From: Acidobacteriota bacterium
Lineage (GTDB): Bacteria; Acidobacteriota; Thermoanaerobaculia; Multivoradales; Multivoraceae
Length of the DNA: 64,000 bases
Assembly (NCBI GenBank): GCA_003388555.1
Contig: QQVD01000031.1
Span: 1 to 64,000, forward strand
Direction: 5' to 3'
Shown here: piece after piece, positions 2,457 through 54,731 of the stretch
How positions within the stretch are numbered: position 1 is the first letter of the stretch
Layout: the number at the start of each line of letters is the position of its first letter
Program-made: the position numbers and the translations under genes
Notes under the pieces: model-generated
What the model saw: only the letters and a program-made list of their open reading frames with translations
The model's database searches: none
What the model was told of the DNA's origin: nothing

Positions 2457-4138
2457 GTGGCGACCGCGGCGCCGCGAACGAGCAGATGCTCCGCCCGCCG
2501 TAGCGCGGCACGGTCGCCGCTGAGGTAGAGGTCGTCGCCCGGCTGCAGGACAGTCCGGCTCGAAACCACCATCTCGACGCCCTCGGCGCGGCCGATGCCG
2601 ATCAGTGAGGCGCCGGTGCGCTCGCGGAGGCGCAGTTCGCCCAACTGCCTGCCTGCGATCGAAGGACCGGCGCGCAGCTGCAGCAGCTGCACCTCGTTGT
2701 TGACCCAGATCCGCTGCTCGCCGAACAGTCGCTCGAGCAGCAGGTCGGCGGTGACCTGCGACAGCGACAGCACGGTGTCGGCGCCGGCGGCGCGCACCCG
2801 GTCGGCGTTGGAGTGCTCGCGCAGGCCGGCGACGATCACCGCCCCGGGAATGGTGTCGCGCACCACCAGGGTCGCGAGCAGCGCCTTGGCGTCGGAGTCG
2901 AGGGCGATCACCACCGCGCGGGTGTTGCTTCCGTCGCGCCCGAGCACCGTCGGCGAGAGCACGTCACCGATCAGATCGGCGCCGCCGTCCGGGTCGGCGT
3001 CGACGGTGATCACCGTCTCGCCGGTGTCCCGGAGCAGCTCCGTGGTCACTTTGCCGACCTTGCCGTAGCCGTAGACCACCACGTCGCCGCCGCGACGCAG
3101 CGCGGTGCCGCCGGCGCAGAGCTCCTGCAGCCGCCGGAGCGACTCGGCGCTGCCGACCGCGGTGAGGATGCCTCCGGCGGCGACCCTCGTGGTGGCGGTC
3201 GCCGGCGTCTCGAACACCGCGCCCCGCCACTGACCGATGATCGAGCTGCCGGTCGAGGAGCCGATGCCGAGCTCGGCCAGCGTCCGGCCGGCGGCGGGTG
3301 AAGAGGGATCGACCCGGATGTCGGAGAAGACGACCCGGCTGTCGATGGCGCCGAGCGGATCGGTGAGCCGGCCGGTGGAGCCCTCGTCGGCATCGCGGCG
3401 CAGCAGGAAGCGCGTCGCCGCGCGCGAGGCGAGCGCGGCGCCGAGCACGTGCTTCGGGGTCAGGGTCAGATCGGCTCCGGCCAGCTGCAGCGGCCGCCGA
3501 TGCTCCGCTTCGCCGACCAGGGCCAGCGCCTGGCCGCTCCAACCAGACCGCCGGAGGGCGACGATCAGCGACGAGCTCTCGTGATCCGGTCCGTTGGTCA
3601 CCAGGGTGCGGATCCGCTGCGGTGGGATGCGATCCAGGAGCAGGTCCGGATCGGGGCACAGCACCACCTCGAGCCCACGCTCGAGCAGCGCCCGCGCGCG
3701 CGCCTCGTCGGTCTCGACGACGACCACGTTCCTCTCGCGCCCCTCGAGCTCGGCGAGGAAGGTCGACAGCTCCGGCCCGGGGCGGAAGACCAGGAGCAGA
3801 TCGTCGAGCCTGGTGGTCGTCGGCACCCGGGTCTGGAAGCGTCGTTCGAGGATCGGGATCAGCGCCAACGGCAGCACCAGGAAGACCAGCGCGACACCGG
3901 TGAACTGCGCCACGACGACGAAGGCGACCATCACCGGGTGGCTCCACCGGCCGTCGATCCCGTAGCCGGTGGTGGTCATGGTCTCGGCCGCCCACTGCAG
4001 GCTCTGCGAGACGGTGCGCTGGTCTCCCTCCAGGTGGCGCATGCCGAGCCAGTAGAGCAGCGTCATCACGGCCAGCGCCGCCGGCACCGAGAGTGCGAGC
4101 AGGCGGACAGTGCGTGCGACCACGCGTCCTGACGACAT
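2399..4138 (-). CDS. Two-TM potassium channel with cytoplasmic NAD-binding RCK (TrkA-like) region
   Basis: The protein is a one-pore K+ channel subunit. TM1 is about residues 11-33. The pore helix runs to the selectivity filter TTTGYG at 55-60, and TM2 follows (VMVAFVVVAQFTGVALVFLV). The cytoplasmic part carries two RCK-like units. The first has lost the nucleotide-binding glycines (VFRPGPELSTFL). The second keeps GYGKVG in VVVYGYGKVGKVTTELL. The C-terminal TrkA-C-like regions end with LQPGDDLYLSGDRAALRRAE. The frame is open upstream to a GTG at 4174, but the ATG at 4138 places the first helix close to the N-terminus and is preferred. The assembled channel would be a tetramer gated by cytosolic ligand. 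The 3' end overlaps the convergent glycosyltransferase gene. Confidence 0.87.
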   Translation of the reverse strand: MSSGRVVARTVRLLALSVPAALAVMTLLYWLGMRHLEGDQRTVSQSLQWAAETMTTTGYGIDGRWSHPVMVAFVVVAQFTGVALVFLVLPLALIPILERRFQTRVPTTTRLDDLLLVFRPGPELSTFLAELEGRERNVVVVETDEARARALLERGLEVVLCPDPDLLLDRIPPQRIRTLVTNGPDHESSSLIVALRRSGWSGQALALVGEAEHRRPLQLAGADLTLTPKHVLGAALASRAATRFLLRRDADEGSTGRLTDPLGAIDSRVVFSDIRVDPSSPAAGRTLAELGIGSSTGSSIIGQWRGAVFETPATATTRVAAGGILTAVGSAESLRRLQELCAGGTALRRGGDVVVYGYGKVGKVTTELLRDTGETVITVDADPDGGADLIGDVLSPTVLGRDGSNTRAVVIALDSDAKALLATLVVRDTIPGAVIVAGLREHSNADRVRAAGADTVLSLSQVTADLLLERLFGEQRIWVNNEVQLLQLRAGPSIAGRQLGELRLRERTGASLIGIGRAEGVEMVVSSRTVLQPGDDLYLSGDRAALRRAEHLLVRGAAVATHPSPATPGKATAIRSSSS

Positions 4139-4278
4139 TGCGATGGATGGTATCCAAGCCGACCGGACCCGCACGGATCGGGAATCGCTGCCTGTGCCGC
4201 GCGCTTTACCTTAGCCAGCGGTGCGTCTGCCGCTCCGAGAGCTGACGAGATCAACGACGAGGCCGGGGAGGGCATCGC

Positions 4279-4806
4279 GTGAAGTTGCAGATCGAGAACG
4301 CTTCGACCCAGGATGGACGACCGACGACCGCCCCGTCGCGGCTTCCGGCGGCACTGCTGGCACCGCTGCTCGCGGTGGCGCTGCTCGGCTGCGGCTCCTC
4401 GCGCGGCGGCAGCGAACCGACGCGTCAGACCACCGAGCTGTACACCTGCGAGATGAGCTTCACGCTTTCGGGCTGGTCGGCGATCTACAAGCGCGCCGAC
4501 GGCCAGGGCCGGGTCTCGTGCAGCAACGGCGAGAGCGCCGAGGTCGCGCTGCGTTTGCGTGGCGGCGGCCTCACCGCCGGCAAGACCGAGATCCTCGAGG
4601 GCACCGGCAAGTTCTCGGGGGTCAAGGGCATCGAGGAGATCTACGGCTCCTACGCCGCTGCCGGCGCCCAGGGCGGCGCGGTGAAGGCGAGCGAGGCGAT
4701 CGCGATGACCAAGGGACCGGTGTCGCTGGCGCTGGCCGGCACTGGGCGCGGCTTCTCGCTGGGGCTCGACATCAGTCGCTTCACCATCCGACGCATCAGC
4801 GACTGA
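4279..4806 (+). CDS. Putative lipoprotein of unknown function
   Basis: The 175-residue product has a lipoprotein signal. A hydrophobic stretch (LLAPLLAVALLGC) ends in an LLGC lipobox with the lipidated cysteine at residue 38, after an unusually long polar n-region of about 21 residues. The mature part has a glycine-rich beta-like pattern. It includes GRVSCSNGESAEVALRLRG, TGKFSGVKGIEEIYGSYAA and LALAGTGRGFSLGLDI. I recognise no named domain. Paired cysteines (TCEM and SCSN) could form a disulfide in the periplasm. The gene is divergent from the channel gene, and its last 11 bases overlap the end of the convergent glycosyltransferase gene at 4796. Confidence 0.7.
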   Translation: MKLQIENASTQDGRPTTAPSRLPAALLAPLLAVALLGCGSSRGGSEPTRQTTELYTCEMSFTLSGWSAIYKRADGQGRVSCSNGESAEVALRLRGGGLTAGKTEILEGTGKFSGVKGIEEIYGSYAAAGAQGGAVKASEAIAMTKGPVSLALAGTGRGFSLGLDISRFTIRRISD

Positions 4807-5992
4807 TCGTGGCGGGTGGCCGGAGAGTCACCCGCCATCCGCTCTCGAGCATCGCGCGGATCGCTTCGCGCAGGTCCTCGCGACTGTGCCTCGCGGCCCA
4901 GTCGGCCGCCTCGCGCCGCATGCGGTCGACACGCTCCGGGTCACCGGCGAGCGCGGTGACGGCGTCGGCGATCTCCTCGCCGTCGGCCCGATCGAGAGCA
5001 ACGCCGCGACCGTCGAGCATCGACCGGGCGAAGCCGCCGGCGGACGACAGGCAGACGACCCCGTGTGCCATCGCCTCGGCGAGCACCTTGGGCCAGCCCT
5101 CGTGGGCGGACGGCAGCACCAGCACGTCGCACCAGGCGTACTGCGCGGCGACCCGGTCGAAGGGCAGGGCGCCGGTGGTCTCGAAGCGGTCGGCGAGTCC
5201 GAGATCGCGCGCCTGGCGCTCCAGCGCTCCGCGCTGCGGGCCGTCTCCGACCAGGCGCAGACGGACGGCGACGCCACGACTCTCCAGCCGGGCGCAGGCG
5301 TCGACCAGGCGATCGACCCGCTTCTGCGCCGCCAGCCGTCCGGCGAAGAGCAGGCGCACCGGCTGGCCGGGTCGCTGCAGCCCAGGAGGCCTCGCCGCGG
5401 CGATCCGACCCGCCTCCTCGACCTGGCTGCGGTCCATCATCGAGGTGAACGAGGGCACGATGTGGGCCGGCTCTCCGGGCCACTCCCCGTAGACGCCGAC
5501 CGGGCCCCGGAACCAGCGGCGCAGCAGCCAGCGCTGCAGCTTCACGACCGGGCGCTCGCCCGGATAGGGCGCCCACTGACCTGCGTACTTGGCGCAGGCG
5601 GGGCGGCCCGAGAGCGGAGCCAGCAGAGCGCCCAGCATGCCGAGCACGTTGGGCAGACGCACGTGCACCGCGTCGTGCGCCCTGATCGCGCGCCACAGCC
5701 TCCAGACGTGGGCCGGTGCGGCGACCGCCTGCGCCAGTCGGCCGAGCGATCGGGGCGAGCCGATCAGCCGCTGCGGCAGCAGCACCAGACCCTGGCGGTC
5801 GATCGCGGTCGCATCGTCGGGCGGCGCCCCTGTGCCGCGCGGCGCTGCGATCGAGAGGCGGGGGAAGAGATCGGCCCACAGCTCGATCTCGCGCGCGTAC
5901 GGGCCGAAGGCCCACAGCCGGCCCCGATGCTCGTAGTGCTCGACCCCCGAGACCACCAGCAGCGACTGTGGCGCTCGGGGCTGGCCGCTCAC
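4796..5992 (-). CDS. Glycosyltransferase family 4 protein
   Basis: The protein is 398 residues from a GTG at 5992. That codon overlaps the stop of the upstream oxidoreductase as GTGA, so the pair is translationally coupled. A GT-B fold is indicated. The acceptor domain begins LLVVSGVEHYEHRGRLWAFG. The donor domain begins near RLLFAGRLAAQKRVDRLVDA, continues LVGDGPQRGALERQA, and carries the EX7E motif HEGWPKVLAEAMAHG. It probably transfers a sugar to a lipid-linked or surface glycan at the inner membrane. Coupling to a Gfo/Idh/MocA oxidoreductase suggests, but does not prove, that the partner makes or modifies the donor sugar. Confidence 0.85.
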   Translation of the reverse strand: MSGQPRAPQSLLVVSGVEHYEHRGRLWAFGPYAREIELWADLFPRLSIAAPRGTGAPPDDATAIDRQGLVLLPQRLIGSPRSLGRLAQAVAAPAHVWRLWRAIRAHDAVHVRLPNVLGMLGALLAPLSGRPACAKYAGQWAPYPGERPVVKLQRWLLRRWFRGPVGVYGEWPGEPAHIVPSFTSMMDRSQVEEAGRIAAARPPGLQRPGQPVRLLFAGRLAAQKRVDRLVDACARLESRGVAVRLRLVGDGPQRGALERQARDLGLADRFETTGALPFDRVAAQYAWCDVLVLPSAHEGWPKVLAEAMAHGVVCLSSAGGFARSMLDGRGVALDRADGEEIADAVTALAGDPERVDRMRREAADWAARHSREDLREAIRAMLESGWRVTLRPPATISR

Positions 5993-7236
5993 GGACGCGC
6001 CGCGGCGCTCGGGTTCCAGTCGCCGCGCGCCACCGCCGGCACGAACTCCTCGAGATCCTCGTCGAGCGCCACTACCCGGCCCTCCTCGGCACTGCGGTAG
6101 GCGGCCATCAACAGCTCGGCGATCGCCACTCCGTCGTCGAAGTTCTCGCGCGGCCGCTCGCCGGCGAGGAAGGCGCGCACCATGTGGCGATTCTCGGCAT
6201 CGTAGCCGTAGGAGGTCGCCTCGCTGGCGAGCACCGGCATGAGGCCCATTTCGGCGTTCTGCTTCTCGACCAGGTCCTCTCCCGCCTGCTGCTGCAGCTC
6301 GCGGGAGAAGAACAGCTGCAGGTCGGTGTCGAGCGAGTTGGTGCGCATCGAGTACTCGGGCCCGAGCAGTTCCATCGACAGGCGCAGACCGGCGCCGACG
6401 AAGGACCACGAGGTGGTGGCCTCGATCATCAGCGGCCGTCCCTGCTCGTCGTCGAGCTCGACGGTGGCGCGGGCGAAGTCCTCGGAGGGGCGCTGACGGT
6501 AGTCGATCTCGCGGCCGTAGCGCTCGCGCAGCTGTTCGGCGTACTCGGGCCGCTGCCACTTGAGCGCCGCGATCTGGGCGCTGACCCTTCGCGGCACGAT
6601 CGAGGTGCGCGGTTTTCCCGGCTCGGTGAGCAGGTAGCGGCCGACCTCGATCGAGTGGCACATCATGTCGTTGAGGACGCCTCCACCTTGCAGGCGTCCG
6701 TTCCAGAACCAGGCGGCGTGCGGTCCCGAGTGCTCCTCCGCGGCGCGCGCAAGGTAGGGCCGTCCGCTCGCCGCGGCGCCGCGTGCCCACGCCAGCTCAC
6801 GTCCGCGCTCCACGGACGGCGCGAAGACCTGGTTCTCGAGGTAGCCGTCGAGCAGGCCGTGCTCACGGGCCAGGCGCTGCATCTCGCGCGCCTCGGGCAG
6901 GGTCCGGCCGAGCGGCTTCTCGCAGGCGACGCCGCGCAGCTTCGCGCCGGAGGCCACCGCGGCGCAGATCTTGCGCATGTTGTCGAGCCGGGCATGGTTC
7001 GGCCCGCACAGCCAGAGGGCGTCGATCGCCGGATCGGCGGCCATCTCCTCGATCGAGGCGAATGCCCTTGCGGAGCCGACGCCGAGCTGTCGTGCCAGCG
7101 CCGCGGCGCGCTCGGCGTTGCCCTGATTCGGGCTCCAGACGCCGAGCACGTCGGCGTCGCGCACTGCGATCCACGAACGGATGTGGAACTGGGTGATGAA
7201 CCCCGAACCGACGAAACCGACTCCCAGACGCTGCAT
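5989..7236 (-). CDS. Gfo/Idh/MocA family oxidoreductase
   Basis: This is a 415-residue NAD(P)-dependent oxidoreductase of the sugar/inositol dehydrogenase family. The Rossmann motif is at the extreme N-terminus (VGFVGSGFITQFH). The family EKP motif is CEKPLGRT, and the catalytic-site histidine lies in GGGVLNDMMCHSIEVGRYLL. The ATG at 7236 has a GAGGAG box eight bases upstream, whereas the longer open frame lacks one. These enzymes oxidise or reduce sugar hydroxyls. The substrate is not determinable here. It lies downstream of a DUF3179 gene and is coupled by a four-base overlap to a GT4 gene, which points to glycan metabolism. Confidence 0.87.
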   Translation of the reverse strand: MQRLGVGFVGSGFITQFHIRSWIAVRDADVLGVWSPNQGNAERAAALARQLGVGSARAFASIEEMAADPAIDALWLCGPNHARLDNMRKICAAVASGAKLRGVACEKPLGRTLPEAREMQRLAREHGLLDGYLENQVFAPSVERGRELAWARGAAASGRPYLARAAEEHSGPHAAWFWNGRLQGGGVLNDMMCHSIEVGRYLLTEPGKPRTSIVPRRVSAQIAALKWQRPEYAEQLRERYGREIDYRQRPSEDFARATVELDDEQGRPLMIEATTSWSFVGAGLRLSMELLGPEYSMRTNSLDTDLQLFFSRELQQQAGEDLVEKQNAEMGLMPVLASEATSYGYDAENRHMVRAFLAGERPRENFDDGVAIAELLMAAYRSAEEGRVVALDEDLEEFVPAVARGDWNPSAAARP

Positions 7237-7333
7237 GCTGCACTCCTCGGCTGAGGTCCAACGGAGGAGCGATCGTAGCAACCGCGGCGGCCGTCCAGAC
7301 TGGCCGCTGCCGGGGTGGGAGCTGTCGCCGGAC

Positions 7334-8707
7334 TCAGCGCACCAGCTCGGTCTCGGGATAGGCGGCGAACCAGCCGAACCAGAACGCCCGGTGCCCCGCC
7401 AGGCGTTCGAGACGGGCACCGTCGGCGCCGACCAGGGCATCCTCGGTCACCTGCCAGACGCCGCCCTCGCCGTCTTCGACCCGGTCGCGACCGTTCCAGT
7501 CGGCGAAGCGGCGCCCGCCGGTGCGGTAGGCGCGGTTGGCTCCCGAGCGGTCGGTGAGCACGACCAGGTCGACACCGGCGTGGCTGAGCTGGTGCAGCGG
7601 GTTGCGCTCGAGGAACTCGGCGGCAAGCGCCAGCGGCTGCTCGGGGTCGCCGAGCAGCAGGCAGAAGACCTCGGCCTTGTTGTCGAGCCGGTCGTCGCGG
7701 CGGGAGACGGCGAACATCAGCTCGTCGGTGGCGAAGTACTCGCGGTACGCCGCGCCCTCCGAGTAGTCGCGCTCGTAGCCGGTGTCGAGCGACAGCACCC
7801 GGGTGTCGGGGTGACGCTTGCGCCATTCTCCCCACGTGGTGGTGACGATGCTCCGCCTCGGCAGCTCGATGCCGCGGCCGACCAGCGGCCCGATGACGGG
7901 CACGCCCCAGAGGGTGTTCCACAGCGACTGCGTCGCCTCGTCGAACATCAGCTTGTTCGAGCGGTAGAGGAAGCCGCTGGTGCCGAGCTCGTACCGCTCG
8001 CCGCCGACCTCGGTCTCGAACAGGATCATCGATCCACACAACGTGCAGTAGACGCCGGCCACCGGCACGCCGCCGACGGTGTCGGTGAACATCTCGTGCC
8101 ATCCCATGATGCGCTTCGGGTAGGCACGCGCGTCGCCTTCGACCTCGAGTCCGAAGACGACGTCTCGCCTGCCGAGGTAGCTCGCCTCGTCGGCGGAGAT
8201 CATCTTCGGGTCGTGCAGCGGCGGGATGCCGTTCTGCGCCACACCCCCCCAGCGCACCTCGTCGAGCTCGACGGTGCTCTCGCGACCGGCCGAGAAGTAG
8301 ATCTCGAAGCGGGGGTCGATCAGCCGGTAGAGAAGGCTCTTGAACTCCGCGTAGTGCTGCCAGTCGCCGCGCTCGTCCCAGGCCCAGTACCACTCGAACC
8401 AGTCGTTGCCCGAACGCGCGAGGCGGCGCTGGCCGGTGGCACGTTCGAGCAGATCGAAGAGCTCGTCGCGGTAGACGGGGTCGCGCACCAGCTGAAGCAC
8501 CTCGAGCAGCATCGGGACGAACGACGGCTGCCACTGGCGCTCGACGCGACTGAGCACGCCGCGCCGGATGTCGGGGTCGTTGCGCAGCAGGTCGACGAAG
8601 TCGGCGGCGGCCAGATCGGGGCTGACGCTCTGGCCGCCAGCTGCGGCGATGCCGCCGAGGGCCAGCAGTACGGACAGGGCCGTGGCTGCCCGGAAGGGTC
8701 GGCGCAC
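7334..8707 (-). CDS. DUF3179 domain-containing secreted protein
   Basis: The product is about 457 residues and has a signal peptide (VRRPFRAATALSVLLALGG...). Two starts are possible, GTG at 8755 and GTG at 8707. The second has an AAGGGG box close upstream and gives a compact signal sequence, so it is chosen. After an alpha-helical N-terminal third, the DUF3179 core is clear: WHEMFTDTVGGVPVAGVYCTL, with a cysteine pair as YCTLCGSMILFET, then LGTSGFLYRSNKLMFDEAT and WNTLWGVPVIGP. The family has no established activity. The conserved CxxC hints at metal or redox chemistry. It precedes the Gfo/Idh/MocA and GT4 genes on the same strand with a ~97 bp gap. Confidence 0.85.
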   Translation of the reverse strand: MRRPFRAATALSVLLALGGIAAAGGQSVSPDLAAADFVDLLRNDPDIRRGVLSRVERQWQPSFVPMLLEVLQLVRDPVYRDELFDLLERATGQRRLARSGNDWFEWYWAWDERGDWQHYAEFKSLLYRLIDPRFEIYFSAGRESTVELDEVRWGGVAQNGIPPLHDPKMISADEASYLGRRDVVFGLEVEGDARAYPKRIMGWHEMFTDTVGGVPVAGVYCTLCGSMILFETEVGGERYELGTSGFLYRSNKLMFDEATQSLWNTLWGVPVIGPLVGRGIELPRRSIVTTTWGEWRKRHPDTRVLSLDTGYERDYSEGAAYREYFATDELMFAVSRRDDRLDNKAEVFCLLLGDPEQPLALAAEFLERNPLHQLSHAGVDLVVLTDRSGANRAYRTGGRRFADWNGRDRVEDGEGGVWQVTEDALVGADGARLERLAGHRAFWFGWFAAYPETELVR

Positions 8708-12433: not shown

Positions 12434-14248
12434 TCATCGCCCCCTCGCGCCGACGCTCTTGTCGGCCAGCCAGTCGCGCAGTCGCTCGGGCTCCCAGGTG
12501 TTGACGCAGGAATCGGCCGGGAGTCCGGCGCGACGCGCCGTACGCACGCCGTAGGAGAGATAGCCGAACTGGGCGTCGGAGTGTGCGTCGGTGTCGATGG
12601 CCACCAGGCAACCGACCTCGACCGCGCGGCGCAGAGCCGCGTCGTCGAGATCGAGTCGACGGGGATTGGCGTTCAGCTCGAGCGCCGTGCCGTGCTCGCT
12701 GGCTGCCGCGCAGAGCGCGTCGATGTCCGGCTGCAGCCCGCGGCGACGACCGACGATGCGGCCGGTCGGGTGCCCGAGGATGTGCACGTGGGGGTTGCGG
12801 ATCGCCGCCAGCAGCCTGCGCGTGGCCGTGGCGCGGTCCTGGCTCAGCGAGACGTGCGGAGACGCCACCACCACGTCGAGCTCGGCGAGCACCTCGTCCG
12901 GGTAGTCCAGGCTGCCGTCGGGGAGGATGTCGACCTCGGCGCCGGCCAGCAGCACCAGGTCGTCGAGCCCGGCCGCCAGCTCGCGGATCGCCGCCACGTG
13001 CTCGCGCAGGGCGTCGATCTCGAGGCCGCCGGCGAGCACCGAGCTGCGCGAGTGGTCGGTGACCGCGAGGACCGCGAGGCCGCGTCGCCGCGCGATCGCC
13101 ACCAGCTCCTCGAGCGAATGGCGGCCGTCCGAGGCGGTCGAGTGGGTGTGCAGGTCGGCGACGATCTGGTCCTCGTCGATCAGCCTGGCGAGCAGGTCGC
13201 GCAGCGCCTCGAGGCCTACACGAGCCGGGTCGAATGCCTCCTCGCGCAGCTCGGCGGGGATGAACGGCAGACCGAGGGCGTCGTAGAGCTCGGCCTCCTC
13301 GGCGCCGGCGAGCGGCGTGCCGCCGTGGTCCTGGGGCCTGGGCTCGTCGCCTTCGAACAGGCCGTACTCGTTGAGCCGGCGCCCGAAGCCGATGGCGATC
13401 TGGCGCATCAGGACGTTGTGCTCCTTCGAGCCGGTGAAGTAGTGCAGCGCGGCGCCGAAGGCGGCCGGCTCGCCGAGACGCAGGTCGGCCTGGATGGCAT
13501 GGCCGCCGGCGCTGAGGCGGACGCTGCACTTGCGCTCCCCGGAGGCGAGCACGTCGGTCACCCGCCCGTCATTCACGAAGGCCTCGGCGAGCCGGCGTCG
13601 CGCCGCCGGGTCGTGGTGGGCGGCCACCAGATCGAGGTCGCCGATGGTCTCGACACCGCGGCGCAAGCTGCCGGCGATCTCGACCCGCGCCTCCGGTTCG
13701 ACGGAGCGCAGTCCGTCCCGCAGGTCCAGTGCCAGTGGCATGGCCAGCGCCACCGGCAGGCGATCGCGGGTCCGGGTGAGGAACTCCAGGGCCGAGCGCA
13801 GGTTCTGCACCGTCTTCCGGCCCATCCGCGGCAACGACTCGACCCGCCCGGAGTCGAGCTCGCGGCGCAGGTCGTCGACTCCCTGCACGCCGAGCTCCTG
13901 CCACAGGGTGCGCACCGCCTTCGGTCCCAGCCCGGGGACCTGGAGGAGCTGGAACAGGCCGCCGGGCACCCTCTCGAGGATCTCGACGTGGTCGGCGATC
14001 TCGCCGTGCTCGACGAACTCGAGGATGCGTCGGGTGGCTCCTTCGCCGATCCCGGGGATCGCTTCGAGACGGGCGCGCAGCTGGGCCGGATCGTCGCCGA
14101 GCTGGTCGATCGGAGCCGTCAGGTCACCGATCGCCCGCGCCACGCGCCGGTGGGAGGCGGAGCGGAACGAGCTCTCGCCGAGCAGGTCGAGCCCGTCGGC
14201 CAGCTCCTCGAAGGCCCGCTGCAGGGCCTTGTTCACGTCGTTGCTCAC
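12434..14248 (-). CDS. polX: DNA polymerase/3'-5' exonuclease PolX
   Basis: The 604-residue product has the full PolX order. Residues 1-90 are an N-terminal 8-kDa-like helix-hairpin-helix domain with LEAIPGIGEGATRRILEF, and a second hairpin is VPGLGPKAVRTLW. The nucleotidyltransferase core is at EIAGSLRRGVETIGDLDLV, where the GDLD aspartates bind metal, and HYFTGSKEHNVLMR follows. The C-terminal PHP domain starts ADLHTHSTASDGRHSLEEL and ends with AIDTDAHSDAQ, so the metal-binding histidines are present. PolX fills gaps in base-excision repair and trims 3' ends. The GTG start at 14248 is chosen because it lies just after the NUDIX stop at 14283. The two genes are probably cotranscribed. Confidence 0.93.
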   Translation of the reverse strand: MSNDVNKALQRAFEELADGLDLLGESSFRSASHRRVARAIGDLTAPIDQLGDDPAQLRARLEAIPGIGEGATRRILEFVEHGEIADHVEILERVPGGLFQLLQVPGLGPKAVRTLWQELGVQGVDDLRRELDSGRVESLPRMGRKTVQNLRSALEFLTRTRDRLPVALAMPLALDLRDGLRSVEPEARVEIAGSLRRGVETIGDLDLVAAHHDPAARRRLAEAFVNDGRVTDVLASGERKCSVRLSAGGHAIQADLRLGEPAAFGAALHYFTGSKEHNVLMRQIAIGFGRRLNEYGLFEGDEPRPQDHGGTPLAGAEEAELYDALGLPFIPAELREEAFDPARVGLEALRDLLARLIDEDQIVADLHTHSTASDGRHSLEELVAIARRRGLAVLAVTDHSRSSVLAGGLEIDALREHVAAIRELAAGLDDLVLLAGAEVDILPDGSLDYPDEVLAELDVVVASPHVSLSQDRATATRRLLAAIRNPHVHILGHPTGRIVGRRRGLQPDIDALCAAASEHGTALELNANPRRLDLDDAALRRAVEVGCLVAIDTDAHSDAQFGYLSYGVRTARRAGLPADSCVNTWEPERLRDWLADKSVGARGR

Positions 14249-14282: not shown

Positions 14283-15044
14283 TCAGTGGTGCAGCAGCCG
14301 GTGGCGGCCGTGCACGGTCTTGAAGAGGGGAACACGCGGCGGCGTGCTGACATCGCCGGAGGCGACCCGCTCGCCGAGCAGCGACAGCACCACCTGGGTG
14401 ATCTTCGGCAGCGGCAGCTTCGTCGTCGCGGAGAGCGGGATCCAGCGCAGGTCGCCGAGCTCGCCGTTGCCACTCGGTGCCGGGTGCTCCTCGTCCAGCC
14501 TGGTGACGAAGAAGCGGGCGTCGAAGCGCTTGGCGCGGCGCGGCGGCGTGACCGCCCGGCAGAGCAGATGCAGCCGGTCGAGAGCCGGCGCCCAGCCTTC
14601 GGCGCCGCCGCCGTCCGGCGCCGCGAACTGCCGCCAGGGTGAGCGGCGCTCAGGCCGGGGCCCGGCGCTCCTGCCGGCGATCCGCAGGCCGGTCTCCTCG
14701 AAGGTCTCGCGGATCGCCGCGATCGCGATGGCGCGGCCGCGGGCCGGCGTCGCTCCGGCCTCGAGCCGCGCCGCGACCTCGGGCCGCAGCTCGCTGGCGG
14801 CCCTGACGCGGTGGTCGTCGCGGTCGACGCGGCCGCCCGGGAAGACGTAGAGGTCGCTCCAGGCGTCGCGGGTACGGCGGCGCCCCATCAGCACCACCGG
14901 GCCGGCGCGTCGGTCGTCGCGCAGCAGCACCAGGGTGGCGGCGTCGCGGGGCCGCGGCGAGCGGGCCGGTCTCTGACGGGCGGCGGCTGGGTCCACCGGG
15001 GCATGATAGACGCGGCGGGCACGCCTGGGAGCGCGTTGTGTCAT
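14283..15044 (-). CDS. NUDIX hydrolase
   Basis: The 253-residue protein has a Nudix box with an insertion. LYVFPGGRVDRDDHRVRA is followed some 40 residues later by AIAAIRETFEETGLRIAG, which holds the metal-binding REtFEETG glutamates. Spacing between the GG and the REXXEE part is longer than in MutT and resembles the NUDT19/CoA-diphosphatase-like subgroup. The enzyme would cleave a nucleoside diphosphate linked to another moiety, and the substrate is not assignable. The first ~35 residues are Arg/Pro rich and may be partly untranslated. It is divergent from the threonine aldolase gene with only 59 bp between, and upstream of polX on the same strand. Confidence 0.85.
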   Translation of the reverse strand: MTQRAPRRARRVYHAPVDPAAARQRPARSPRPRDAATLVLLRDDRRAGPVVLMGRRRTRDAWSDLYVFPGGRVDRDDHRVRAASELRPEVAARLEAGATPARGRAIAIAAIRETFEETGLRIAGRSAGPRPERRSPWRQFAAPDGGGAEGWAPALDRLHLLCRAVTPPRRAKRFDARFFVTRLDEEHPAPSGNGELGDLRWIPLSATTKLPLPKITQVVLSLLGERVASGDVSTPPRVPLFKTVHGRHRLLHH

Positions 15045-53816: not shown

Positions 53817-54178
53817 GTGGAGTGGAGAGTGGTCGGTGGTGGAGCTGTTGCCGTGAGTGGTGCGGCTCGGCTTCCCGAAACGCATGGAACCGTAGCCTTC
53901 GCTGGGATGACGGAAGGAACAAGAGCGGTCGGGGGGCCTGCCGCACCGACTCGGCGCTGCGCGAAGCTTCGAAGGCGCTCCTCAGAGGGAATGGTGAGGA
54001 CAGCAGAGGGAGGAAACTGGCGATTGCCGTGGGAACGTCGATGGCCGGACGTGGGATCGTGAGGCGGCTGATTGTCGAAGGAGAGAGATGCGAAGGAACG
54101 ACTCCCGTTGGGCGTGTCGGAAGAGGGCGAGATGTCGGGGACAGCGTCACGAAGGCTCGTTCGTGAGATCCTCGGAGG
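53817..54178. other. Intergenic region between TauE/SafE and GIY-YIG remnant
   Basis: The ~360 bases contain the left hairpin-repeat copy (53868-53920). The rest is visibly richer in A and purines than neighbouring genes, with no plausible ORF. It probably belongs to the same inserted unit as the GIY-YIG gene. Confidence 0.5.
53868..53920 (-). repeat. Left inverted copy of a ~50-bp hairpin repeat
   Basis: This stretch matches, in inverted orientation, the copy at 54546-54601. Its core is GCCTTCGCTGGGATGACGGA. One arm of the internal hairpin is worn: AACCGTAGC stands where ATCCCAGC is expected. The match contains a few mismatches and one indel. It is the shorter, more degenerate boundary of the GIY-YIG unit. 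Confidence 0.7.
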
Positions 54179-54471
54179 ATGAAGGAGCCGGCGGTCTACA
54201 TCGTCATCGGCGGTTCGGCGCTCTCTACGTGGGCGTGACCAGTCACCTGGTCCAGCGGATCTGGCAGCACCGGGAAGGTCTGGTCGAGGGATTCACGCGA
54301 AGGTACGGGATCGAGTTGCTCGTCTACTACGAGATGCACCCTCAGATGAACGAGGCCATTCAGCGCGAGAAGCAGTTGAAGGCCTGGAAGAGGGCATGGA
54401 AGATCCGCCTCATCGAGAGGGACAACCCGCACTGGCAGGACCTCTGGGAGGAGATCGCCGGAGGTCGTTGA
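54179..54471 (+). pseudogene. GIY-YIG nuclease family protein, frameshifted near the N-terminus
   Basis: A ~96-residue single-domain GIY-YIG nuclease can be read only by joining two frames. MKEPAVYIVIGGSA starts at ATG 54179. GALYVGVTSHLVQRIWQHRE continues in another frame from about 54208. The shift is net one base deleted (or two inserted). The rest is clear: GFTRRYGIELLVYYEMH and AIQREKQLKAWKRAWKIRLI, with the catalytic arginine and glutamate. Similar small stand-alone nucleases are common, with no proven function. The gene lies between two inverted hairpin repeats, at 53868-53920 and 54546-54601. Confidence 0.8.
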
Positions 54472-54731
54472 TTCACGCGGCTCAAAGGGTCTCGGCCCTT
54501 CCTCTCGTCACACGGCCTGCCGACACTCGATGCCCGTCGAACGTGATTCCTCCCCTCCGTCATCCCAGCGAAGGCTGGGATCCATGCGTTGCGTGAAGCC
54601 GACCCGCCCCGTCGCCGCTCGACGGGCTCACCGAGCCGGAGCCGACGACCGACCAGCCTCCGACGCCGATTCACGAGCCGAACCGTCGCGGCCAGGCCGG
54701 CGCCCCGAACGGCTCAGCCCCGATCCACGGC
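54472..54731. other. Intergenic region between the GIY-YIG remnant and ileS
   Basis: The ~260 bases hold a weak hairpin at 54484-54499 (AAGGG...CCCTT), possibly a terminator for the nuclease gene, and the right hairpin repeat. The remaining ~130 bases up to the ileS stop (on the minus strand) show nothing recognisable. Confidence 0.4.
54546..54601 (+). repeat. Right inverted copy of a ~50-bp hairpin repeat
   Basis: The copy has an intact internal palindrome at 54562-54581, ATCCCAGC and GCTGGGAT around a GAAG loop. Flanks are CCGTC on one side and CCATGCGTTGCGTGAAGCC on the other. It is the reverse complement of 53868-53920, except for a few mismatches and one indel. Repeats of this type, with the core CATCCCAGCGAAGGCTGGGAT, are widespread in bacterial genomes and are often mis-annotated as protein. 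Confidence 0.75.

Follow-up and report, generated by a model that had tools for sequence, protein, structure and literature searches.

CGTC-tagged REPs constitute a superfamily of repeats that includes dRS3 of Neisseria (i.e., CGTC-1) and RPE-4/6 of Rickettsia (Di Nocera, De Gregorio and Rocco, 2013, PMC3733652); tagged REPs as a whole are known from more than 80 species in 8 phyla. Its members resemble the repeat studied here, being hairpins with an unpaired CGTC at one end that occur in multiple copies and often in inverted pairs. The superfamily is presented there as lacking a dedicated transposase, whereas our loci often pair such REPs with a GIY-YIG nuclease gene. REPtrons and their RAYT (TnpA-REP) proteins, as described in the same pages (PMC3733652), share the layout of our unit, i.e., a single small nuclease gene enclosed by inverted REPs and many solitary REPs, but rely on a Y1 HUH transposase and a GTAG tag instead of a GIY-YIG nuclease and a CGTC tag. 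Nuclease-linked CGTC REPs would represent a second, independently evolved REP-type system beside RAYT.

A family of small, widespread GIY-YIG enzymes named Ssn, which we take to be the family of the nuclease reported here, is said to consist of site-specific single-stranded nucleases, each with a cognate repeat, NTS in the case of Neisseria; the study reportedly comes from Chenal, Veyrier and colleagues, in Nature Communications in 2025. Measured against this definition, our gene is a small GIY-YIG gene with its catalytic residues kept, although broken, and the many copies of a cognate repeat would correspond to a repeat that adjoins the gene, has about 20 genomic copies and is its putative target. 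To our knowledge, that study neither claims that REP and gene form a mobile unit nor assigns the repeats to the CGTC REP superfamily. The pairing of nuclease and repeat is probably known in part because of this work on Ssn and NTS, and what is added here is the identity of the repeats as CGTC REPs, the REP-gene-REP unit with its empty sites, and the copy-number link. Among the matches listed, the openly licensed PMC literature contained no paper tying GIY-YIG nucleases to CGTC REPs. The main text of a 2025 REP survey (PMC12306157) has neither "nuclease" nor "transposase", and a paper on the GIY-YIG superfamily (PMC1564403) has neither "COG2827" nor "palindrom".

The locus lies in the window, i.e., the whole stretch of 64,000 nucleotides analysed. 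We consider it fairly probable that it holds a unit in decay, in which CGTC-tagged REPs, the targets of a small GIY-YIG nuclease, enclose the gene for that nuclease, and that such nucleases cut single-stranded REP DNA while REP and gene behave as a mobile unit; we infer both the target recognition and the mobilisation.

The unit between the TauE/SafE gene and ileS

A TauE/SafE gene and ileS bracket the unit, in which a GIY-YIG nuclease gene lies between two inverted repeat copies of about 46 bp (Table 1). Two pairs of inverted arms were detected, one of 33 nt with 85% complementarity (53859-53891/54578-54610) and one of 24 nt with 96% (53894-53917/54553-54576), which confirms the enclosure of the gene put forward in the original prediction. 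That prediction also placed the same hairpin repeat at both ends: the copies are inverted as proposed, but only the right hairpin is intact, the left copy having kept its tag and first arm while the second arm no longer reads GCTGGGAT. Around 15 bases beyond the CCATGCG of the right copy are common to other copies in the genome. Scanned alone and without gaps, the left copy scores 28/46, the level of shuffled sequences (maxima 28-30), because of one indel.

Table 1. Features of the unit, in positions of the window.
Feature	Positions	Strand	Remarks
Left CGTC-REP copy	53867..53913	minus	Tag inwards; second hairpin arm decayed, GCTACGGT
Stretch of ~265 bp from left REP to start codon	53914..54178		Exceeds the 250-bp limit used for counting hairpins at related loci
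GIY-YIG nuclease gene, frameshifted	54179..54471	+	MKEPAVYI in one frame, GALYVGVT...GGR in another
Right CGTC-REP copy	54557..54602	plus	Intact hairpin CGTC-ATCCCAGC-GAAG-GCTGGGAT-CCATGCG

The unpaired CGTC lies directly 5' of the stem in the right copy, and this tag, together with the short loop and the CCA tail, matches the CGTC-tagged REP superfamily; judged by its sequence, the repeat is thus a CGTC-tagged REP. Simple GTC-tagged hairpins number 24 in the window, and the GTCAT...ATCCA form occurs only at 54558-54581. The GC content of the unit interior is 0.62 against 0.71 for the window, with no lower value among the 639-bp windows sampled. An A-rich and purine-rich interior had been predicted; the former stands (A content 0.21 versus 0.14), while the purine content (0.57) is the same as in the left flank and higher only than in the right flank (0.51). 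By eye, a weak hairpin just 5' of the start codon (54144-54170, GCGTCACGAAGGCTCGTTCGTGAGATCC) resembles a decayed REP in the usual, tag-outward orientation.

The core repeat was found at 20 places of the 6.8-Mb genome with up to 3 mismatches, while the reversed pattern gave none; the tag is CGTC, or TGTC in some copies, and not the GTAG of REPtrons. The variant seen in the left copy of the unit recurs once, at C58:14403, so these two copies probably share ancestry. Contig C58 (G000:C58, locus L024) carries there an inverted REP pair, 12798-12818 and 14403-14423, the two REPs 1.6 kb apart and enclosing a short-chain dehydrogenase gene, and the right copy of this pair has the GCTACGGTT variant, as does the left copy of the unit. 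Two further REPs of the same contig (4738-4758 and 6126-6146) are intragenic, within a long frame at 4101-8420 coding for a Sortilin-Vps10/BNR-type protein. Since the nuclease gene is frameshifted and a search of the genome turned up no further gene of this subfamily, its REPs, about 20 in number, are probably relics.

The nuclease and its relatives

The gene matches the GIY-YIG domain (PF01541, 49.1 bits), as predicted, and nothing else, so that the unit lacks the Y1 (HUH) transposase gene of a REPtron. The predicted frameshift is likewise present: the segment MKEPAVYI, read from the ATG at 54179, runs in its separate frame into a stop, hence the frameshift is real in this assembly, although an error of assembly may have produced it. 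With its first GIY-YIG motif in another frame, the gene is broken. The Y, R, E and N residues of the GIY-YIG site, presumably the catalytic positions, are conserved across the family and retained in the main reading frame of the window gene. A GLVEGFT-like stretch is also common to the family, as seen in alignments A3 and A4 (37 and 33 rows, respectively); A4 served for the fold. Loci L048 and L076, which have a stop inside the matched stretch, were left out of the protein work, and L077 was left out of the tree.

The structure predicted for a homologue (L040) is a compact GIY-YIG fold (pLDDT 94.6). Compared with the PDB, this model matched only the UPF0213 protein 1zg2 below E=0.001, followed by Slx1 structures and, more weakly, UvrC-N; a sequence search of the PDB likewise returned only UPF0213 below that threshold. 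NCBIfam held no family for the four proteins searched. YhbQ/UPF0213 proteins thus share the fold and size of the family and provide its closest PDB match, but the window gene does not group with them. Three places of the window genome encode GIY-YIG proteins, i.e., the window gene, a YhbQ-type gene and one that reads as UvrC beside uvrB; no second member of the window subfamily was found in this genome.

Among the 59 relatives searched, clear homologues occur in G003 only, which has two of them, 50% identical, and four more relatives give weak matches (31-40%). The protein tree has little resolution, with 26 of its 60 inner branches open. In it the window protein falls among Pseudomonadota rows and away from both copies of G003, a member of the same family, a placement without support, while the single YhbQ row, from the window genome, sits on a very long branch distant from the window row. 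One G003 copy (L084) is enclosed by an inverted repeat of 57 nt (89% complementary) whose GTC ends face the gene; the other (L079) has only scattered pieces of related repeats.

Association of the nuclease family with tagged hairpins

We collected a sample of 51 genes of the window nuclease subfamily from public genomes, among the matches listed. GTC-tagged hairpins occur within 250 bp of 38 of these 51 genes on at least one side and of 23 on both, compared with 12/96 and 0/96 for control ORFs of the same loci; by this rule the left REP of the window, about 265 bp from the start codon, is not counted. Adding a longer-loop class raises the numbers to 41/51 and 25/51 among the same matches. A scan of all 256 tetramer tags over these 51 loci ranks GTCA first by number among the hairpins near the genes (87 in 42.7 kb versus 36 in 248.7 kb far from them, about 14-fold by density); CGTC comes third (53 near, 46 far), and all tags together are 2.2-fold denser near the genes. 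Inverted repeats sought without any motif, with scores of at least 16, surround 28 of the 51 genes among the matches listed; the controls from related loci give 1/95 for ORFs and 1/543 for gene-sized windows. The window gene itself scores 25, the maxima being 15 for the 43 other ORFs of the window, 16 for the 95 control ORFs and 17 for the 543 windows.

Short GC-rich palindromes may come to lie beside an unrelated gene by chance; in favour of this, the core of the repeat is widespread, the window has further GTC-tagged hairpins and other genomic REPs adjoin ordinary genes. For the family as a whole, all the control comparisons (ORFs, YhbQ-type genes, gene-sized windows) speak against this explanation, which we regard as extremely improbable; with no control ORF out of 96 flanked on both sides and one window in 543 with an inverted repeat scoring at least 16, chance pairing was rejected.

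The fixed scanner undercounts, as it misses longer-loop repeat classes, and it can also overcount, as for a match in a masked stretch in the Lysobacter family set (L182). Ten loci of the 51 have no scanned hairpin; the eight viewed by eye (all but L062 and L077) have GTCAT...ATCC(A)-type repeats or close variants near the gene. In L033 the related repeats lie 130-380 bp upstream of the matched stretch, L041 displays the tail half only and L076 has a changed tag. In consensus the hairpins read YGTCAT...ATCCA, and their loops are mainly of two kinds, GCGAAAGC-like and CTTG. Protein and hairpin similarity are correlated (r=0.43, permutation p=0.001, n=47), as would be expected from co-diversification or from mere shared descent.

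A set from a plasmid collection was also considered, in which 12 of 36 matches were taken so as to be spread over genera. Scanner matches lie within 400 bp in 10 of the 12 loci, one of which (L086) is not a clear REP; related repeats were missed by the scanner in L086, L091 and L093. The tag is not universal: near the genes of L086 (Rhizobium) and L091 (Sinorhizobium) it is changed, and the repeats there read CTCATYCCTGTGCTCGTCACAGGRATCC. In Neisseria gonorrhoeae (L095, 2650-3570), a homologue absent from the collection's gene table, which is incomplete, has eight dRS3-type CGTC hairpins within 400 bp. This gonococcal homologue falls inside the tree of the window nuclease family. Across many phyla, the nuclease family is accompanied by this class of repeats.

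The association does not extend to YhbQ-type GIY-YIG genes of the same genomes: hairpins were found at none of 12 such genes, classed by best match, clearly for about six (L105-L110) and weakly for the others, and a general effect of GIY-YIG genes was rejected on the basis of this control. In the same comparison, clear window-type loci (at least 80 bits), some of them shared with the set of 51 genes, have hairpins in 8 of 12 cases and lack them in 4, and six loci under 50 bits, left unclassified, have none. The link between nuclease and REPs, absent in YhbQ-type genes, provides a testable candidate enzyme for CGTC REPs.

In the family or genus, as named by the tool, of Lysobacter arvi, best matches only, hairpins accompany 45 of 46 window-type loci, one of the 45 being doubtful owing to masking, and lie on both sides in 29; neither of two YhbQ-type loci has any. 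Locus L135 of this set and L032 are one and the same gene. One inward upstream REP at 43-61 bp is common to seven loci from the genus of L. arvi (L141-L143 and L146-L149), and no REP was found within 250 bp downstream of these genes. This is possibly a vertically kept or domesticated form.

The number of REPs also follows the gene. In the family of L. arvi, the nuclease gene (E<=1e-10) is present in 53 of 159 genomes, and at least 10 REP copies occur in 41 of these 53 versus 6 of the 106 genomes without the gene (Fisher 8e-21, kinship ignored; reversed pattern 0), leaving 12 gene-bearing genomes with fewer than 10 copies and the 6 others as counter-cases. Among 119 genomes of the Microvirga arvi family, searched with the pattern of another stem class, the proportions are 24/63 with the gene and 5/56 without (p=2e-4, kinship ignored), so that 39 of the 63 genomes with the gene stay below 10 copies of that pattern.

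CGTC REPs might also be spread by a Y1 (RAYT-like) or another transposase, the GIY-YIG link being secondary. Y1 transposases are indeed common in the L. arvi family (109 of 159 genomes), but their presence does not predict the number of CGTC REPs (35/109 with Y1_Tnp versus 12/50 without, p=0.35), and a Y1 link was rejected on this ground. Furthermore, at least 10 copies are found in 10 of 10 genomes that have the GIY-YIG gene and no Y1, versus 4 of 66 that have Y1 and no GIY-YIG gene, and Di Nocera et al. (PMC3733652) state that the tyrosine transposase genes of CGTC-positive species are never flanked by CGTC repeats. Spread by Y1 thus appears very improbable.

The orientation of the REPs bears on the window unit itself. 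Its tags point inwards; elsewhere, among the matches listed, the outermost hairpin pair is tag-outward in 19 of the 23 both-flanked loci and tag-inward in one, and the nearest pair is tag-inward in 4 of the 23. The window REPs could therefore be independent genomic REPs flanking an old, broken nuclease gene whose own repeats have decayed. The rarity of the inward orientation, the long upstream spacing and the C58 pair (12798/14403) around a dehydrogenase gene agree with this, which we hold to be possible and rather unlikely. Against it, with 20 copies found in 6.8 Mb, chance would very rarely place two of them within 300 bp of one particular gene, although the copies do cluster; an inward upstream REP is also found at the seven loci from the genus of L. 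arvi, and the L084 gene too lies inside an inverted repeat with GTC ends facing it. We favour a REP-gene-REP unit, of which the window copy is most likely a decayed example. Its exact boundaries are uncertain, because the copy is decayed and has the rarer orientation, and the proposal that the present repeats are the original unit ends is not supported, given the inward tags and the other inverted pair around the dehydrogenase gene.

A lack of association between scattered repeat copies and GIY-YIG genes had been named as evidence against the prediction, and half of this was found: 18 of the 20 core copies of the window genome lie on contigs without a GIY-YIG match. Such separation is also what non-autonomous repeats would show.

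Variable presence of REP-gene-REP units

In the mechanism that we favour, the nuclease would recognise tag and hairpin (YGTCAT...ATCCA) as single-stranded DNA and cut at the hairpin foot, and the REP-gene-REP or REP-REP segments so released would be lost or joined elsewhere. The gene would spread as the autonomous member, solitary REPs being non-autonomous members; in the window genome, the nuclease would since have been broken by the frameshift.

Three other loci differ between related genomes in the presence of a unit. In Azospirillum lipoferum 4B, a REP-gene-REP unit lies between sufB and sufC, and eleven other Azospirillum records match this site in two pieces, about 500-600 bp shorter; the unit is absent from the four of these that were fetched, one of which (L100) has a poorly aligning junction and no gene there. 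In Sphingobium, a unit lies beside fnrL in seven records while five match in two pieces, and in two of the three records aligned (TYG64 and TYG74) a single CGTC...GACG palindrome replaces it. At one locus compared in 12 genomes of the genus of L. arvi, gene and REPs are present in 4 (the left REP being altered in G096), one REP is left in 2, half a REP in 1 and no REP in 5; in one of the one-REP genomes (G098), the remaining REP joins the head of the left copy to the right copy. As read from these alignments, the states at the three loci fit units gained and lost by events at the repeats, which need not be transposition as such. Ordinary homologous exchange, or a deletion between repeats, can produce such changes as well.

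The nuclease might instead be an enzyme of use to the host, one that cleaves single strands carrying REPs and thereby modulates natural transformation or recombination, with REPs as its targets and a gene that moves by ordinary recombination. The work on Ssn and NTS in Neisseria reportedly leans this way, as does the gonococcal homologue among its dRS3-type CGTC hairpins; moreover, no target-site signature of transposition was seen at the loci examined, and the G098 scar resembles a deletion between REPs. The absence of the entire unit from the suf operon of relatives, the occurrence of as many as 4 or 5 matches in separate places of one genome (G164, G329) and the rise of REP number with the gene argue the other way, and we judge a host-use enzyme doubtful. 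The original prediction had proposed a nuclease-linked mobilisation system distinct from that of Y1 transposases, and this is supported in part: the pairing proved general and units are present or absent at the three loci, but the nuclease family itself is reportedly already described as Ssn.

More broadly, we see even chances that the dedicated enzyme so far missing from the entire CGTC REP superfamily, with the GTCATTCCCGCG..., GTCATTGCGAG... and GTCATTCTGAG... repeats counted in, is supplied by this GIY-YIG subfamily. REP-gene-REP would in that case be a new minimal mobile element that acts via single-stranded hairpins, as REP/RAYT systems do, with a nuclease unrelated to RAYT, and the window would hold a decayed copy of it.

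For the window itself, an ileS match (E<=1e-20) was found in 2 of 23 other genomes of the family, and in both tauE is not within 1.5 kb of ileS; consequently, relatives provide no clean empty site. A flank search for Rhizobium CIAT894, where an IS4 element adjoins, gave no usable empty site and no other record covering most of the query.

On a plasmid of Planktothrix agardhii (L093, 2600-3560), a nuclease gene of the family occurs with GTCATTCTGAG-type repeats, and its neighbours are a gene annotated as an MmeI-type restriction-modification enzyme and drmA of a DISARM defence locus.
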